A stretch of DNA of 11,463 bases from an uncultured bacterium (GTDB taxonomy: Bacteria > Patescibacteriota > Patescibacteriia > Patescibacteriales > Patescibacteriaceae), in contig CALMNI010000170.1 in NCBI GenBank assembly GCA_937868555.1, positions 1-11,463 on the forward strand. The letters run 5' to 3'. The position numbers and the translations under genes are program-made. Shown one piece after another: positions 667 through 8,976 of the stretch. Under the pieces are notes generated by a model. It had not been told where the DNA came from, made no database searches, and saw only the letters and a list, made by a program, of their open reading frames with translations. The first letter of the stretch is position 1; each line of letters begins with the position of its first letter.

Positions 667-2151
667 ATGGACCCACGATTAAATCATTTTACTAAAATAG
701 ATACAAGCATCGAGCATTATGACGGCTGCCCGGCATTTATTGAAATAACCGGAGCAGCATATACGCGTCCTTTATATAATAGTTCTATACCGTGCTATTC
801 AATGTGTGCTTCATTTTTTAAAAAACGCCAAGGAGATTATTTGTCCCTTGTCGCAGATCAGAGAAAAATAGGACGTGCTGTTATTGAAAAATTTTTAAAG
901 AACGAGAGCGATATATTAGATGTATATAACAAATGGCTGGGGAACTTCAGTACTCTGATGGATTATTTTAGAAATAAATTTTCCGAAGATCTTTCAAAAC
1001 TCAGCAACGATGAACTCTCTGAATGGTCAAACAATTTAACCACTTTTTATAGAGACACCATTCAAATGCCGGGATTCAGCGACGGTTATATGTTTTATGC
1101 CGACAAGCGCCTTGATGAACTTTTGACAGCATATTGCAAAGAAAGGGATATTAAAAATAGAATGGAGCTTTTTGCTATTTTGGCCGCACCGACTGAGCCT
1201 TCGTTTTTGAATGAAGCCGAAAATGATTTGAAGCGTATTGGCCAGCTTTGCGTAGCTTCTGGATATGATCAAAAAAATTCTTTGTTAGATTTCCTGAAGT
1301 CAAGAAAATCCGAATGCGTGTTGATAGAGGAACATATTAAAAAATACGCGTTTATTCAAAGCAGCTATGCCGGATATGTACCGTACACCCTTGAGGATGC
1401 AGTTGAGAAAATTGCAAAACTAGATTTAGATTCCGTGGATGATAATCATTTCCTTATAAATGAACAAATAAAAAGAAAGACTATTGAAGAGCATGATTTT
1501 ACCAAAGAAATTTTAGCGATTGCTCGTTTAACAGAAATCTTTATTAAATGGCAGGACAGGCGCAAAGAGTATACGTTAACTGCCGTGTCGCTGCGGCAAA
1601 AAGTTTTGGATGAAGTTTCGCGTCGGACGGGAGTCTCTGATGAGGTTTTGGTATATGCTGAAACGGCGGAAATTTCCAAAATACTCGCGGGTTCCATTGA
1701 TATAGATGAAATCGCGAATCGTCAAGACGGTTGTTTATTTTTTTATGAAAATGGCCGAACGGCAGCGATCGTAACAGGGACAGAGGCAATTGATTTTTTT
1801 GATAACTTGTCGCATATTGAGTTGAATGATGTTACTGAGGTAAAGGGATTGACCGCCTCTTTAGGTAAAGTATGCGGAAGGGCAAAAATTGTTATGACTG
1901 CGCAGCATATTAATGAAGTGAAGCCTGGAGATATTTTAATTGCACCGATGACTAGACCCGAACATACTGTCGGGATGCAAGCCGCAGCAGCAATAGTAAC
2001 GGATGATGGCGGAATAACCTGCCATGCGGCCATTGTTTCTCGAGAATTAAAAAAACCTTGTATAATCGGAACAAAAATAGCAACCAAAATTTTTAAAGAC
2101 GGGGATATGTTGGAGGTAGATGCGGATCATGGAATAGTTAGAAAAATATAA
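667..2151 (+). CDS. Phosphohistidine swivel-domain protein (PEP-utilizing enzyme mobile domain), no ATP-grasp domain
   Basis: A 494-residue protein whose C-terminal ~100 residues (about 393-494) form the PEP-utilizing enzyme mobile domain of PEP synthase, pyruvate phosphate dikinase and rifampin phosphotransferase. The phospho-acceptor signature GGITCHAAIVSR (448-459, His453) is intact and fits the standard active-site pattern. The preceding ~390 residues are mostly helical in character, with a short segment at 285-340 followed by 'IANRQDG' that resembles the helical region preceding the swivel domain in the second protein of this window (7966-8976). No ATP-grasp nucleotide-binding domain and no PEP/pyruvate TIM barrel are visible, so by itself it should not complete a dikinase cycle; a partner in trans or a different phosphate donor is implied. 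It is followed 9 bases later by a glutamine amidotransferase-like gene, probably co-transcribed. The gene is AT-rich (one 60-base sample, 1441-1500, is 23% GC). The substrate is unknown. Confidence 0.8.
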   Translation: MDPRLNHFTKIDTSIEHYDGCPAFIEITGAAYTRPLYNSSIPCYSMCASFFKKRQGDYLSLVADQRKIGRAVIEKFLKNESDILDVYNKWLGNFSTLMDYFRNKFSEDLSKLSNDELSEWSNNLTTFYRDTIQMPGFSDGYMFYADKRLDELLTAYCKERDIKNRMELFAILAAPTEPSFLNEAENDLKRIGQLCVASGYDQKNSLLDFLKSRKSECVLIEEHIKKYAFIQSSYAGYVPYTLEDAVEKIAKLDLDSVDDNHFLINEQIKRKTIEEHDFTKEILAIARLTEIFIKWQDRRKEYTLTAVSLRQKVLDEVSRRTGVSDEVLVYAETAEISKILAGSIDIDEIANRQDGCLFFYENGRTAAIVTGTEAIDFFDNLSHIELNDVTEVKGLTASLGKVCGRAKIVMTAQHINEVKPGDILIAPMTRPEHTVGMQAAAAIVTDDGGITCHAAIVSRELKKPCIIGTKIATKIFKDGDMLEVDADHGIVRKI

Positions 2152-2910: not shown

Positions 2911-3216
2911 TTAGGCAATTTTTTTCTTTTGCCACAGATGATGGAGGATGGCGCAGGGTTCAATAATATTTGGATCAATAATGGTATAAAAAACGTTTAA
3001 ACCTTGCTTGCGGGTATGAACAAGCCGGTTGTGTCGTAATAAAGCAAGATGCTGAGAAAGATTAGCTTTTGGCAATTTTGTAATTTTTAACAACTGTTCA
3101 ACCGATAATTCTCTATGCTTGATATTATTAAGAATTTCTAGCCGTTTTTCATTAGCGAGAACCTTATATATCTTGGCATTTCGTTCAAAGGCTGCTTTGG
3201 GGAGTACTGATTCCAT
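2911..3216 (-). CDS. ArsR-family winged-helix transcriptional regulator without the classical metal-site motif
   Basis: A 101-residue protein that is almost entirely one winged helix-turn-helix domain. KVLANEKRLEILN (about 18-30) is the family's first-helix signature, LSVEQLLKITKLPKANLSQHL (37-57) is the helix-turn-helix with recognition helix at about 48-58, and the wing follows at HTRKQGLNVFY. The ELCVCDL metal-sensing motif of ArsR/SmtB is absent: that helix reads ELSVEQL, and the only Cys is near the C terminus in EPCAILHHL, with two adjacent His. It is therefore either a redox or ligand sensor or uses a non-classical site. It lies 44 bases downstream of the adenosyltransferase on the same strand and has its own promoter at 3236-3264, so it could be both the tail of the B12 operon and independently expressed. 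Its targets are unknown. Confidence 0.88.
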   Translation of the reverse strand: MESVLPKAAFERNAKIYKVLANEKRLEILNNIKHRELSVEQLLKITKLPKANLSQHLALLRHNRLVHTRKQGLNVFYTIIDPNIIEPCAILHHLWQKKKIA

Positions 3217-3235: not shown

Positions 3236-3264
3236 ATTATATCGCAAGGCTTTTGAAAAATCAA
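3236..3264 (-). promoter_or_regulatory. Promoter for the ArsR-type regulator, with flanking direct repeats
   Basis: On the minus strand TTGATT (3264 to 3259), a 17-base spacer and TATAAT (3241 to 3236) form a good sigma-70-type promoter. The expected start near 3229 leaves a ~13-base leader before the ATG at 3216. The -35 box overlaps the stop codon of the adenosyltransferase gene. The -10 box lies between two copies of TTGCG spaced 11 bp apart (3247-3243 and 3236-3232), about one helical turn, a plausible autoregulatory site. Confidence 0.6.
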
Positions 3265-3821
3265 TGGATATAACTTGGGGATTGTTCTTCGCAATGAGCT
3301 TGTTTGTTAGCAAAACGAACTAACGCATATAAGAGGCTGGAAAGTCTGTTGAGGTAGGCGGAGGCTGCGTGCGTGCTGTCGTTTCCCTTTTCTTGTATAA
3401 CACCAACAAAGGATCGTTCGCAGCGGCGGGCTATTGTACGCGTAATATCAAAATAAGATCCAAGAAGTGAAGCGCCCGGCAGATAAAAACTTTGCGGCTG
3501 CGGCAACCCTTCTGTAAGCCGGCTAATATTTGTTTCTATTTCTTTAACTCGTTTAAGCGAAAGGCCAAGGTCTGCGCCGGCAACTTGCGCCTGTATAGTA
3601 AAAAGGCTTTCTTGGGCCTGTAGGAGTATTGATTGTATGTACGGCGCACTCTCATGACTCGATGAGGCGTTGATCGATCGGCATAAACCAAGCCAGCAAT
3701 TCAGCTCATCAAGCGTGCCAAGTAGCTCAAACATTGGATTGTTTTTCAGCAAGCGTGTGGTATCTCCAAAAAGAGCGCTTGTCCCATCATCGCCGCGGCC
3801 GGTATAATAATTTGTTTTCAT
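3261..3821 (-). CDS. Cob(I)alamin adenosyltransferase, PduO/MMAB type
   Basis: This 186-residue enzyme transfers the adenosyl group of ATP to cob(I)alamin to give adenosylcobalamin. Family landmarks are in order: the N-terminal ATP loop YTGRGDDGTSALF (6-18), GTLDELNCWLG (35-45), FYLPGASLLGS (112-122), the basic helix RTIARRCER (128-136) and YLNRLSSLLYALVR (156-169). Length matches the family. I place the start at the ATG at 3821, not at an in-frame upstream codon: it aligns with the usual family N terminus, it overlaps the reductase stop as ATGA, and a GGAG lies 10 bases upstream inside the reductase gene. Translational coupling to the B12-dependent reductase makes supply of its cofactor the obvious role. 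The C terminus carries a short polar tail (HCEEQSPSYIH). Confidence 0.93.
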   Translation of the reverse strand: MKTNYYTGRGDDGTSALFGDTTRLLKNNPMFELLGTLDELNCWLGLCRSINASSSHESAPYIQSILLQAQESLFTIQAQVAGADLGLSLKRVKEIETNISRLTEGLPQPQSFYLPGASLLGSYFDITRTIARRCERSFVGVIQEKGNDSTHAASAYLNRLSSLLYALVRFANKQAHCEEQSPSYIH

Positions 3822-6112
3822 AATTCGCAAGCTCCGCCAGCGCAAGCAAGTTCCCGTTTCATTTCGGTTTCATCCTGCGCTTCGTAAGAGACTATTTTTG
3901 AAAAATCTAAGCTAAGGAATTTTTTTTTCATTTCTTCATAGCGCTCCTCATCGATTGCTTCGTATGGAGCCAGCTGATAGACGTGGTTGGAACGAGGCAA
4001 GAATGACAAGCCGCCGACAATATTCCAATTCTCGTAAACCCAATTAGCAACTCCTATCCATTCTTCTTCGCCAACAGAAACTGTAACTGAGGGGTTGTGT
4101 TCAGTAAAATGCTGTTTTACTTCTTTCCAATACGTAAGCATATCAATGGCTGACAAGTTATCTTTATATATAGAGCCAGCTGGCGACTTAACAGGAAATT
4201 CAAAGACAAAGGTTGTCGCACTTTCGGTTGCTTGCCCTACTTCTGGCTGGCAGGGAACGCCTTGGTCGCGCAGCATTTTAAAAAGCGCATCGGTTGCAGA
4301 AATTCTAATTCGGCGTATGTAGAATGGCGCATGTCGTGGATGCATTCCGGAGGCGCAATCAACTAATTGGGAAACGGTACCCGAGGGTTTAACGCAGGTA
4401 ACGCAGCTTGATGCCGGAATGCCGAAACGTTTAGCGTACATGCGGTTAGTGCGTACTGCCTCCCGTTTTAAAACATCTAAGACTTCGGCTTTTCTAACTG
4501 TCGGGCAATCCCACTGACCAGTAATAGAAACTCCAAGTAGGCGCTCAGCTTCGCAATTTTGTTTCCATTCTTTGGAAAGATAAGGAAAGTGAGTAAGCGT
4601 TGATTGATAGGTTCCTATAAGGGCGGCCAGGCGAGCTTTTTTTAAGAGCATTGATTTGGTGTCCCCGGCTCGGGCAACCACTTCTGATAAATTACAGAAT
4701 TGTTTTGATTGCAAAATTATTTCTCCGCAGGGATTCGTACCTATGAGCCCAATAATTGTAGTGCCGTCAGCATTAAAATATCCGCCTTTCTTTTTTAATA
4801 AACGGAGGCGCCTCGCCGGTAAGGTTGTTGCGAGCGAACCGCGGTTAAAGATCCCGCGTTCGCCGGAGCCTGATTGCGCAAGAGCCAGCCATTCTTCAAG
4901 AAATGTTTCGCTAGTTGGACGACGGCCGTAGACAGCGGAATTATTAGCCAGCGAGCGTTGCGGTTCAGTTAAATAAAATTGGCCTTTTTTAGCATCGCGA
5001 ATATCTTGATCATCAAGATCGGATAAGGAAATCATAGCGCTGCGCCGTACCCCGCCAGCGACAACGCAATCGCCTATCATGCAAATGATATCGTGCAGAT
5101 CTATATTTCTAAGGCGTTTGCCTTGCCGGCTTAATATTTTACGGCGCGCAAATTCAAGGAGGCGTTGCAGCGGTTCGGGGCCAGAGCTTTTGCCGCCCAT
5201 GGTTTTTAAGCGGGCGCCGGCCGGGCGCAGGTTAGAAAAATCAAAATCAATATCAAGCCCAGCTGCCCAGCTGCGCATGCCAAGGGCAAGAGCATTGGCC
5301 CAGCCTTCTTTACTGTCGCCAACAACATGGCGTTTCAATTTTTTTCCATTCTGCATTTCGATTTGTGGGAAGCGTTGGACGTTTTGACTTTCAACCGACC
5401 AGCCAACTCCTGTTCCGCACATCGATACATACATTATTTCGGCGATATCTTGGAATTGCTGGGGAGCGATATAGGAACAATTATAGGCGCAGACATTAGT
5501 GCTTTTGGCTGCCGGCCCCGCGAATTGCAGTAGGCGCATAGAAGGCATTACTTCTTGTTTCAAAATCGCTTCGCGCAGCTCAGCGTATTCTTGGGGGCGG
5601 ACTTTTTTTCCTAATTGTTCGCGCATGAAAGCGATATATCTATCGACTGTTTCTATCCATGTTTCGCGACGGCGTTCACTTTCAATCCAGCGCGCATAGG
5701 TTCGGTAATAGACAAATTCTGACAGTGGATTTTTAAAGTAACGTTTGCTTTCGCTTGCTAGTTTTTTTACATGCTCAGGGATAGCGGCAGTATGCCGTCG
5801 CGCTTCCATACGTTGCTGCCTATAGAGGATATATGCCTTGGCAACCTTATGAAGGCCTTTAGACATGATCGCTTCTTCAACGATATCTTGGATGAGCTCA
5901 ACAGTAGGAATAAAAGAAGTATCGTTAGAAAGTTTTTTTAAGCGGTTGAGATCAGTGAGAACGTGTTTGGCAACAGCGGCCGGAAAACCATCCTGGGCTT
6001 GGCCAGCGGCGCGAAATGCCTTAGTGACTGCTTGCTCAATGCGATTAGAATCAAAGGGAACAAGGCGTCCATCCCGCTTCTTAATGTTAGTAATGGAATT
6101 TGTCTTGTTCAT
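3818..6112 (-). CDS. nrdJ: Class II adenosylcobalamin-dependent ribonucleoside-triphosphate reductase (RTPR type) with N-terminal ATP-cone
   Basis: A 764-residue ribonucleotide reductase that makes deoxynucleotides using a radical generated from adenosylcobalamin. An ATP-cone allosteric domain occupies about 7-105 (KKRDGRLVPFD near the start, KAYILYRQQR at its end). The core begins with YYRTYARW (135-142). NVCAYNC (206-212) supplies one of the active-site disulfide cysteines (Cys208 or Cys211). MCGTGVGW is at 231-238. NPCGE (460-464) holds the presumed thiyl Cys462 and Glu464, and Cys473 lies 11 residues on, the same spacing as C408/C419 in the Lactobacillus leichmannii enzyme. CVKPSGTVSQL is at 573-583. 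The C-terminal tail CAGGAC (757-762) is the C-x4-C shuttle pair. All key residues are present. Both ends overlap neighbours by ATGA, and there is no Shine-Dalgarno sequence. No nrdR or NrdR-box is visible. The gene is GC-rich compared with others here (sample 5161-5220: 67%). Confidence 0.95.
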   Translation of the reverse strand: MNKTNSITNIKKRDGRLVPFDSNRIEQAVTKAFRAAGQAQDGFPAAVAKHVLTDLNRLKKLSNDTSFIPTVELIQDIVEEAIMSKGLHKVAKAYILYRQQRMEARRHTAAIPEHVKKLASESKRYFKNPLSEFVYYRTYARWIESERRRETWIETVDRYIAFMREQLGKKVRPQEYAELREAILKQEVMPSMRLLQFAGPAAKSTNVCAYNCSYIAPQQFQDIAEIMYVSMCGTGVGWSVESQNVQRFPQIEMQNGKKLKRHVVGDSKEGWANALALGMRSWAAGLDIDFDFSNLRPAGARLKTMGGKSSGPEPLQRLLEFARRKILSRQGKRLRNIDLHDIICMIGDCVVAGGVRRSAMISLSDLDDQDIRDAKKGQFYLTEPQRSLANNSAVYGRRPTSETFLEEWLALAQSGSGERGIFNRGSLATTLPARRLRLLKKKGGYFNADGTTIIGLIGTNPCGEIILQSKQFCNLSEVVARAGDTKSMLLKKARLAALIGTYQSTLTHFPYLSKEWKQNCEAERLLGVSITGQWDCPTVRKAEVLDVLKREAVRTNRMYAKRFGIPASSCVTCVKPSGTVSQLVDCASGMHPRHAPFYIRRIRISATDALFKMLRDQGVPCQPEVGQATESATTFVFEFPVKSPAGSIYKDNLSAIDMLTYWKEVKQHFTEHNPSVTVSVGEEEWIGVANWVYENWNIVGGLSFLPRSNHVYQLAPYEAIDEERYEEMKKKFLSLDFSKIVSYEAQDETEMKRELACAGGACEL

Positions 6113-6669
6113 AGAGATGGATTAAGCTTGGGTAGTAGTTCTTTGAGCCTATTAGCTTCAAAGCGCGGATTGGCGACAACGAGTTTGAAAATGAGCGGGC
6201 TAAGGAGGGCTCCTAAAATCACATTGCCTAAAAGATGATAAGCAGTGAAAGGAATTTGACCTATAACAGCCGATTGGAATGTTTGTCCGAAGAATAGGGG
6301 TCCTATTGATAAGCCGGTTACAATATCGTAGATAAGGGTTGCATAGACTGCGTGAATGGCATATTGAAAGGGACTGCCTTGGCGTTTTTTAAAGTACCAG
6401 GCGGAAAATATTGCTAACAAACCGTAGGCGGCAGCGGTAATAAGTGTCCATAGACCTAGCTTCCCCGTAACGGCGTCAAAAATCGCGATATTGCAAAAGG
6501 CAAAGAAAAAACCAGCTAACCAACCATATTGTTTGGCAAAAGGCATTTGCACGGCCAGAATTGCTTCAATATTCGGCGGTCGGAAAGGAATGAGCCGAAG
6601 CCCAAAAGAGAGGAGCCATCCGAGCAAGAACTTGAACCAACCCCCTTTCGGGGAAGACGTGACAGACAT
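6109..6669 (-). CDS. Membrane protein resembling an ECF transporter S component (predicted cobalamin uptake)
   Basis: From the ATG at 6669 this is a 186-residue hydrophobic protein with about five to six membrane segments (near 12-28, 34-46, 47-67, 72-92, 103-125, 141-165), with no signal peptide or soluble domain. Size, topology and conserved patches (RPPNIEAILAVQMPFAK at 30-46, FDAVTGKLG at 64-72, the final AYHLLGNVILGALLSP at 143-158) resemble substrate-binding S components of energy-coupling-factor vitamin transporters; that family call is moderate. Because its stop overlaps the start of the B12-dependent reductase (ATGA) and the next gene is a cobalamin adenosyltransferase, cobalamin or a precursor is the likely substrate, by inference. 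The EcfA/EcfT energizing module is not in this window. An in-frame TTG at 6708 would add 13 residues, but it lies only 2 bases from a strong -10 box, so the ATG is preferred. Confidence 0.65.
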   Translation of the reverse strand: MSVTSSPKGGWFKFLLGWLLSFGLRLIPFRPPNIEAILAVQMPFAKQYGWLAGFFFAFCNIAIFDAVTGKLGLWTLITAAAYGLLAIFSAWYFKKRQGSPFQYAIHAVYATLIYDIVTGLSIGPLFFGQTFQSAVIGQIPFTAYHLLGNVILGALLSPLIFKLVVANPRFEANRLKELLPKLNPSL

Positions 6670-6710
6670 ACATTTGTATGATAGTTTATTAGTATCGAAA
6701 CAATGCAACT

Positions 6711-6739
6711 ATTATAGCTCTAAGAAATTCTTTAGTCGA
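6711..6739 (-). promoter_or_regulatory. Promoter of the B12-reductase operon
   Basis: On the minus strand TCGACT (6739 to 6734), a 17-base spacer and a consensus TATAAT (6716 to 6711) are followed by a ~35-base leader to the ATG at 6669. The leader is far too short for a cobalamin riboswitch, so the operon is either constitutive or controlled by a protein. The divergent pyrD-like gene starts at 6823, so the two share this spacer. Confidence 0.55.
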
Positions 6740-7965: not shown

Positions 7966-8976
7966 TTAGAGTATTTGAGCTTTCTCTTTTTCCGCATCAA
8001 GTTCAATGATATCTCCATCTTTAATATGTGCGGTTGCGGCATGTATTCCCATAATGCAGGGAATTCGATATTCCCGGGCCATAATTGCGGCATGGCTAGT
8101 TATTCCTCCTTCCTCGGTGATAATGGCAGATACGAGAGGAATATAAGGAGTGAGCAAGGTATTTGTCATCACAGCGATAATGATATCGCCTTTTTTTATT
8201 TTGTATAAATCTTCTTTTGTAATAATAATTTTTGCTGCTCCCTTTGCTTTACCGGGGAATGCGCACGTGCCTTTTAGTATATTATTAGAATAATTTTCAT
8301 TCATTTCAGGATTGATAAAATTATGAGCTGCGCAAAATTGCGAGAACGATGATTCGGGTGAAATAGTATGAGCGAATACGCTATACCCTTTTTGTCTTTG
8401 AAGAAGATTATATATTTTCTCAGCATCCGATTGATCATTTAAGATAGAATCGAATTCATCAATTGTTATAAAGTGGGCCAATCTTTTTGGAAGTTTTTTC
8501 TCAAGGAGTTTTTGTTCTATGAATTTTTCAACCATTTCATCGGCGCGGTATAAAATTCCTTCCGACAATTTTCTTGATTCCCAGGCTGTATTATTACGGT
8601 TTACGAAATCATCACTGACAATAAAAATATATAAGGACATTATACAGCCCATTAAAGAATGTATACGATGTAGATGCGTGGCCGCTATGGTATGTATTGA
8701 TAAAATAATTTCTAATTCCGCTACATCTTTTTTAAACTGCTCATTCAGTCTTGTGAAAAGATTGGCATCATTTAGTAATTTTTCAGTCACTACTTTTTTA
8801 AAGTAGCTAAAATCTTCCAAGGTATGGAAAAAATTTACTTTTTCCCCATCGTAATAAAAGGTTATATTGAAAGAATACCCCAAGGATTTTTTCAATATTT
8901 GAGTGTAGCCTAGCTCCCAGGCTTCAATAGAGAAAAGGGATAAATCTCGTTTTACGGTTGGCCGCAATATTTTCAT
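7966..8976 (-). CDS. Second phosphohistidine swivel-domain protein (PEP-utilizing enzyme mobile domain), no ATP-grasp domain
   Basis: A 336-residue paralogue of the protein at 667-2151. The C-terminal domain (about 235-336) is the PEP-utilizing mobile domain with an intact signature GGITSHAAIMAR (290-301, phospho-acceptor His295), preceded by GDIIIAVMT and followed by PCIMG and KDGDIIELDA, the same sequence blocks in the same order as its paralogue. Residues 1-230 are largely helical; the 'FDSILNDQSDAEKIYNLLQRQKG' region (175-197, quoted in part) matches in layout the segment before the swivel domain of the other protein. It is about 158 residues shorter, mostly in the middle helical part. 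No ATP-grasp or PEP-binding barrel is present. AGGA lies 7 bases before the ATG, one of the few Shine-Dalgarno-like sites in the window. It is strikingly AT-rich (samples 8461-8520 and 8581-8640: 30% and 32% GC). It converges on pyrD with a 3-base gap. Function unknown. Confidence 0.8.
   Translation of the reverse strand: MKILRPTVKRDLSLFSIEAWELGYTQILKKSLGYSFNITFYYDGEKVNFFHTLEDFSYFKKVVTEKLLNDANLFTRLNEQFKKDVAELEIILSIHTIAATHLHRIHSLMGCIMSLYIFIVSDDFVNRNNTAWESRKLSEGILYRADEMVEKFIEQKLLEKKLPKRLAHFITIDEFDSILNDQSDAEKIYNLLQRQKGYSVFAHTISPESSFSQFCAAHNFINPEMNENYSNNILKGTCAFPGKAKGAAKIIITKEDLYKIKKGDIIIAVMTNTLLTPYIPLVSAIITEEGGITSHAAIMAREYRIPCIMGIHAATAHIKDGDIIELDAEKEKAQIL

Follow-up and report, generated by a model that had tools for sequence, protein, structure and literature searches.

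A CbrT-like membrane protein encoded with a B12-dependent ribonucleotide reductase and a cobalamin adenosyltransferase in Patescibacteria is a probable corrinoid importer

The window, an 11,463-nt stretch of DNA (contig CALMNI010000170.1) from an uncultured member of the Patescibacteriaceae, carries a compact group of three genes on the minus strand: a 186-residue, CbrT-like membrane protein with a predicted S-component fold (6109..6669), which we propose to be a corrinoid importer; an adenosylcobalamin-dependent ribonucleoside-triphosphate reductase (RTPR) with an N-terminal ATP cone (3818..6112), assigned by profile and PDB alignment; and a cobalamin adenosyltransferase (ATR; 3261..3821), which matched both PF01923 (E = 2.2 × 10−38) and TIGR00636 over cut-off and is thus of the PduO type. 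Read from the sequence, both junctions are 4-nt ATGA overlaps on the minus strand, between the membrane protein and RTPR genes (6109..6112) and between the RTPR and ATR genes (3818..3821). A promoter-like site, TCGACT-17-TATAAT, lies on the same strand (6711..6739), 41 nt upstream of the ATG at 6669, and agrees with 10 of 12 consensus bases. This layout, already described in the first-pass annotation, was confirmed throughout in the ORF list and the sequence. Sites as good as this one numbered 9 in 4.2 kb vs 7.0 ± 3.2 in shuffled sequence, so that their count was rejected as evidence and position alone argues for the promoter. An ArsR-type regulator gene (2911..3216, minus strand; NF033788 over cut-off) begins 44 nt downstream of ATR and may be a fourth gene of the operon or its regulator, and a dihydroorotate dehydrogenase gene lies divergently beside the operon. 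Elsewhere in the window, at 667-2151 (+) and 7966-8976 (−), the sole family over cut-off was the C-terminal PEP-utilising mobile domain PF00391. The genome of origin comprises 1.02 Mb in 202 contigs and is 94% complete. In a genus mate (G001), the genes follow in the order membrane protein–RTPR–ATR–ArsR, and the 4-nt overlap between the membrane protein and RTPR genes is also present (L106:4229-4232).

The RTPR matched TIGR02505 with E = 1.6 × 10−84 and 284.5 bits, under the model cut-off of 340.05, and the enzymes of its genus mates scored 320.8 and 286.5 bits. It aligned to PDB 1l1l (E = 1.2 × 10−46) with conservation of Cys408, 419, 731, and 736 of that chain, which we take to be the catalytic and C-terminal cysteines of RTPR. 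Four of the five 1l1l cysteines with such roles fell in aligned stretches, the pattern of a class II ribonucleotide reductase (RNR), and the ATP cone PF03477 was detected. RTPR as the sole RNR of the genome was ruled out by a class I NrdA encoded on another contig (C109; L126:2502-5156); the genus mate G001 encodes NrdA and NrdB. RTPR may therefore serve at low oxygen, beside the class I enzyme. NrdD was found in 2 of 54 genomes searched, neither of them the genome of origin. In one related locus (L068:4237-8040), the RTPR ORF spans ~3.8 kb and its profile match is split into two distant parts, perhaps owing to an intein.

For the membrane-protein family, AlphaFold2 modelling yielded a six-helix S-component fold; in the model, the 186 residues consist of this fold and a short tail, with no signalling domain. 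The only PDB sequence match was CbrT (E = 0.0036). Fold and match together bear out the earlier description of the protein as S-component-like. In profile searches, the window protein itself passed no family-profile cut-off; among the 66 aligned family members, 43 matched PF07155 (E ≤ 0.01), a family named for riboflavin. An NCBIfam riboflavin transporter, tried as a candidate, reached only E = 0.82. Riboflavin and folate S components outscored BtuM in fold comparison, and a Foldseek search with the model found nothing at E ≤ 0.001; CbrT was absent among the VIA fold-comparison matches listed, which excludes nothing. His145 is invariant in all 66 aligned members and pairs with a histidine of CbrT, making it, on sequence grounds, a candidate substrate-contact residue. 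A single-sequence query detected no relatives in viral contigs. In another genome (G029), which has no full-length RTPR, a short frame (L110:4768-5088) matches residues 70-175 of the membrane protein only and is perhaps a truncated copy.

We then surveyed the neighborhoods of related genes. The search pattern picked out 220 stretches in the genome collection, of which 123 encode relatives, in records titled mostly for Patescibacteria lineages; the best 80 of the 123 were analyzed. In 55 of these best 80 loci, the membrane gene has at least one B12 gene close by, a strong linkage of the kind that the first-pass annotation had anticipated. A B12-dependent RNR is encoded in 51 of the best 80, in 48 cases in the same orientation and no more than 400 nt away. 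By our own sorting of these 51 loci, the RNR gene stands downstream in 41 and upstream in 8, is convergent in L072, and is an NrdJ in L027, where the order is NrdJ–ATR–membrane protein–NrdR. ATR genes occur in 40 of the best 80 loci, 33 of them PduO-type and seven BtuR/CobA-type (L007, L014, L020, L038, L056, L057, and L051, the last a fragment at a contig start), never both together; PF02572 was confirmed in all five of the seven that were tested. Since the unrelated BtuR/CobA type replaces the PduO type, the place of the ATR is kept while the enzyme type changes. Either type is present in 39 of the 51 RNR loci, contig ends cutting some of the other 12. A 4-nt overlap of the same kind joins the membrane protein and RNR genes in 22 of 38 related loci measured, with the other 16 lacking it, and ArsR relatives occur in 13 of the best 80, some non-adjacent. 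In a tree built by a quick method, with few strong branches, nearly all RTPR-linked members clustered, and L027 and L072 fell outside; the L083 ORF, with an end branch of 10, is probably in the wrong frame. L027 (6237-11485) also shows, by eye, a dUTPase-like ORF after NrdR, in a record titled Woesearchaeota archaeon, perhaps a binning error.

No B12 gene was found nearby in the remaining 25 of the best 80 loci. In L053, L058-L060, L062, L063, L069, L077, L079, and L080, the homologue adjoins a gene that appears pyrB-like by eye; purF-like and aminopeptidase-like genes, likewise judged by eye, are often near, giving a second family context. We searched 29 genomes, those of the B12-unlinked loci (L054 not among them) plus that of L027. 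Strong RTPR matches, some with split or partial frames, were present in 20 of the 29, PduO ATR over cut-off in 21, and neither in five.

Cobalamin riboswitches were detected in 22 of 64 loci searched from the best 80 of 123, directly upstream of a DUF4430 ORF in all 21 loci that could be judged. DUF4430/transcobalamin-like surface proteins are encoded in 30 of the best 80. In L072, riboswitch, DUF4430, transcobalamin-like, membrane protein, and ATR elements follow one another in a single orientation, and the gaps measure 15, 23, and 35 nt. There (L072:2137-6157), in L028:13426-16119, and in others of the 30 loci, the riboswitch precedes genes for secreted DUF4430 and transcobalamin-like barrel proteins close to the membrane-protein operon. 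The window contains no cobalamin riboswitch up to E = 1 and no surface-protein genes, and the genus loci (L106-L108) and L109 gave no riboswitch over the gathering score. Transcobalamin, intrinsic factor, and haptocorrin are the closest known systems for these surface proteins of relatives, encoded outside the window; among the 27 PDB matches listed for the surface-protein profile, the best was squalene-hopene cyclase, and no B12 carrier appeared.

Next, we looked for the energizing partner of the S component and for other routes to B12. The search for EcfT (PF02361) covered 110 genomes, namely 61 relatives and 51 genomes with linked copies, the genome of origin and G001 belonging to both sets. 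No EcfT passed the cut-off in any of them, the genome of origin included; of 14 control genomes, 10 matched and nine did so over cut-off. The membrane protein thus looks like a solitary S component. The first-pass annotation had taken it for the B12-specific subunit of an ECF importer; the linkage to B12 supports the substrate half of that claim, and the ECF partner finds no support. CobS, the cobalamin-synthesis gene searched, was absent from all 54 genomes examined, including the genome of origin, and no FecCD (BtuC-type) permease was matched in the latter, in line with the earlier expectation of a host that neither makes B12 nor has a separate importer of that type; 3 of the 54 gave FecCD matches over cut-off that were partial and weak. 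Full-length RTPR occurs in five of the 61 relatives (the genome of origin, G000, with G001-G003 and G037), two of which have the membrane protein. The other three (G002, G003, and G037) retain RTPR–ATR, and class III NrdD and PF02867 RNR searches found no match in them; they accordingly need B12 and obtain it otherwise. Other PF12822 S components were found over cut-off in none of 37 genomes, these three included, with five weak matches.

Solitary and ECF-dependent B12 S components are both known. CbrT of Lactobacillus delbrueckii (ECF-CbrT) is a proven B12 S component that operates with an ECF module and is encoded in a nrdJ-cbrS-cbrT-pduO cluster, as set out in the cited part of PMC5997447. 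Our protein resembles it in being an S component encoded alongside a B12-dependent RNR and a PduO enzyme, and in the alignment of the PN motif in loop 1 and the last-helix histidine; it differs in that the sequence match is remote, no EcfT was found, and the gene order is another. Because CbrT sits in the broad PF12822 family, the match by itself leaves the substrate unfixed. BtuM of Thiobacillus denitrificans is described, in the cited part of PMC6072759, as a solitary S component that supported B12-dependent growth of Escherichia coli with no ECF module there, with the product proposed to be trapped by its neighbor BtuR and with an invariant Cys80 that ligates cobalt as the defining feature. 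This cysteine has no counterpart in the membrane-protein family: the best cysteine column of the 66-row alignment reaches 29 of 66, and 31 members have no cysteine at all. Membership in BtuM is thereby ruled out.

Taken together, we favor, with a probability of roughly 0.7, an operon that takes up, activates, and uses corrinoids by way of a CbrT-like S component that is probably solitary and acts by BtuM-like facilitated transport. On this proposal, which draws on gene content and predicted fold, the membrane protein would bind cobalamin or another corrinoid at its outer face and let it through, working alone with no ECF motor, as proposed for BtuM. Inward pull would come from the ATR, which makes adenosylcobalamin, and from RTPR, which binds that product. 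Where related lineages encode transcobalamin-like proteins that are anchored at the surface and controlled by a cobalamin riboswitch, these proteins probably catch B12 first. The B12 part of the first-pass reading is likely right.

How far this holds against an ordinary ECF-dependent B12 S component depends on the motor, which could be too divergent for PF02361, lie in missing genome parts, or be replaced by another ABC ATPase. CbrT, the nearest solved relative, does use an ECF module (according to the same part of PMC5997447), weak EcfT matches below cut-off were seen in two relatives (G040 and G007), and many of the genomes are fragmented drafts. Set against the uniform lack of EcfT over cut-off in 110 genomes, where most controls were recognized, these points leave that explanation unlikely, if still the strongest competitor. 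The transported molecule might instead be a nucleotide-related metabolite (a base, a nucleoside, or a riboflavin-like compound), so that the tie to RTPR would reflect nucleotide metabolism and not B12; the pyrB-like and purF-like neighbors of related loci, the divergent dihydroorotate dehydrogenase gene, and the PF07155 matches all fit such a substrate. That two unrelated ATR types share operons with the membrane protein, that the L072 copy lies within a cobalamin-riboswitch operon, and that most genomes of unlinked loci still encode RTPR, in some cases in split or partial frames, or PduO ATR makes it improbable. S-component folds also occur in receptors (the cited part of PMC11109136), and the protein could in principle be a B12 sensor or membrane anchor and no transporter at all; given a six-helix fold with a short tail and no signalling domain, we regard this as very improbable.

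Solitary corrinoid import may itself be one element of a wider arrangement, which we put forward tentatively, at somewhat under even odds: a motor-free B12 route of the Patescibacteria's own, in which riboswitch-controlled, surface-anchored transcobalamin-like catchers would pass corrinoids on to a CbrT-like S component that acts alone and lacks the BtuM cysteine, and adenosylation and loading of the B12-dependent RNR would trap the corrinoids. The window would then represent the importer–activator–user core.

Among the matches listed in the open literature, we found no paper on this system. The family defined here, with 123 relatives, is a candidate B12 importer of these reduced bacteria, seemingly without an ECF motor, and bears on the unsettled working mode of solitary S components. 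Should B12 prove to be bound by the transcobalamin-like proteins that relatives encode behind riboswitches, these would be a bacterial counterpart of the animal B12 carriers, and import of B12 through the membrane protein would link DNA precursor synthesis in these organisms to B12 made by their neighbors.
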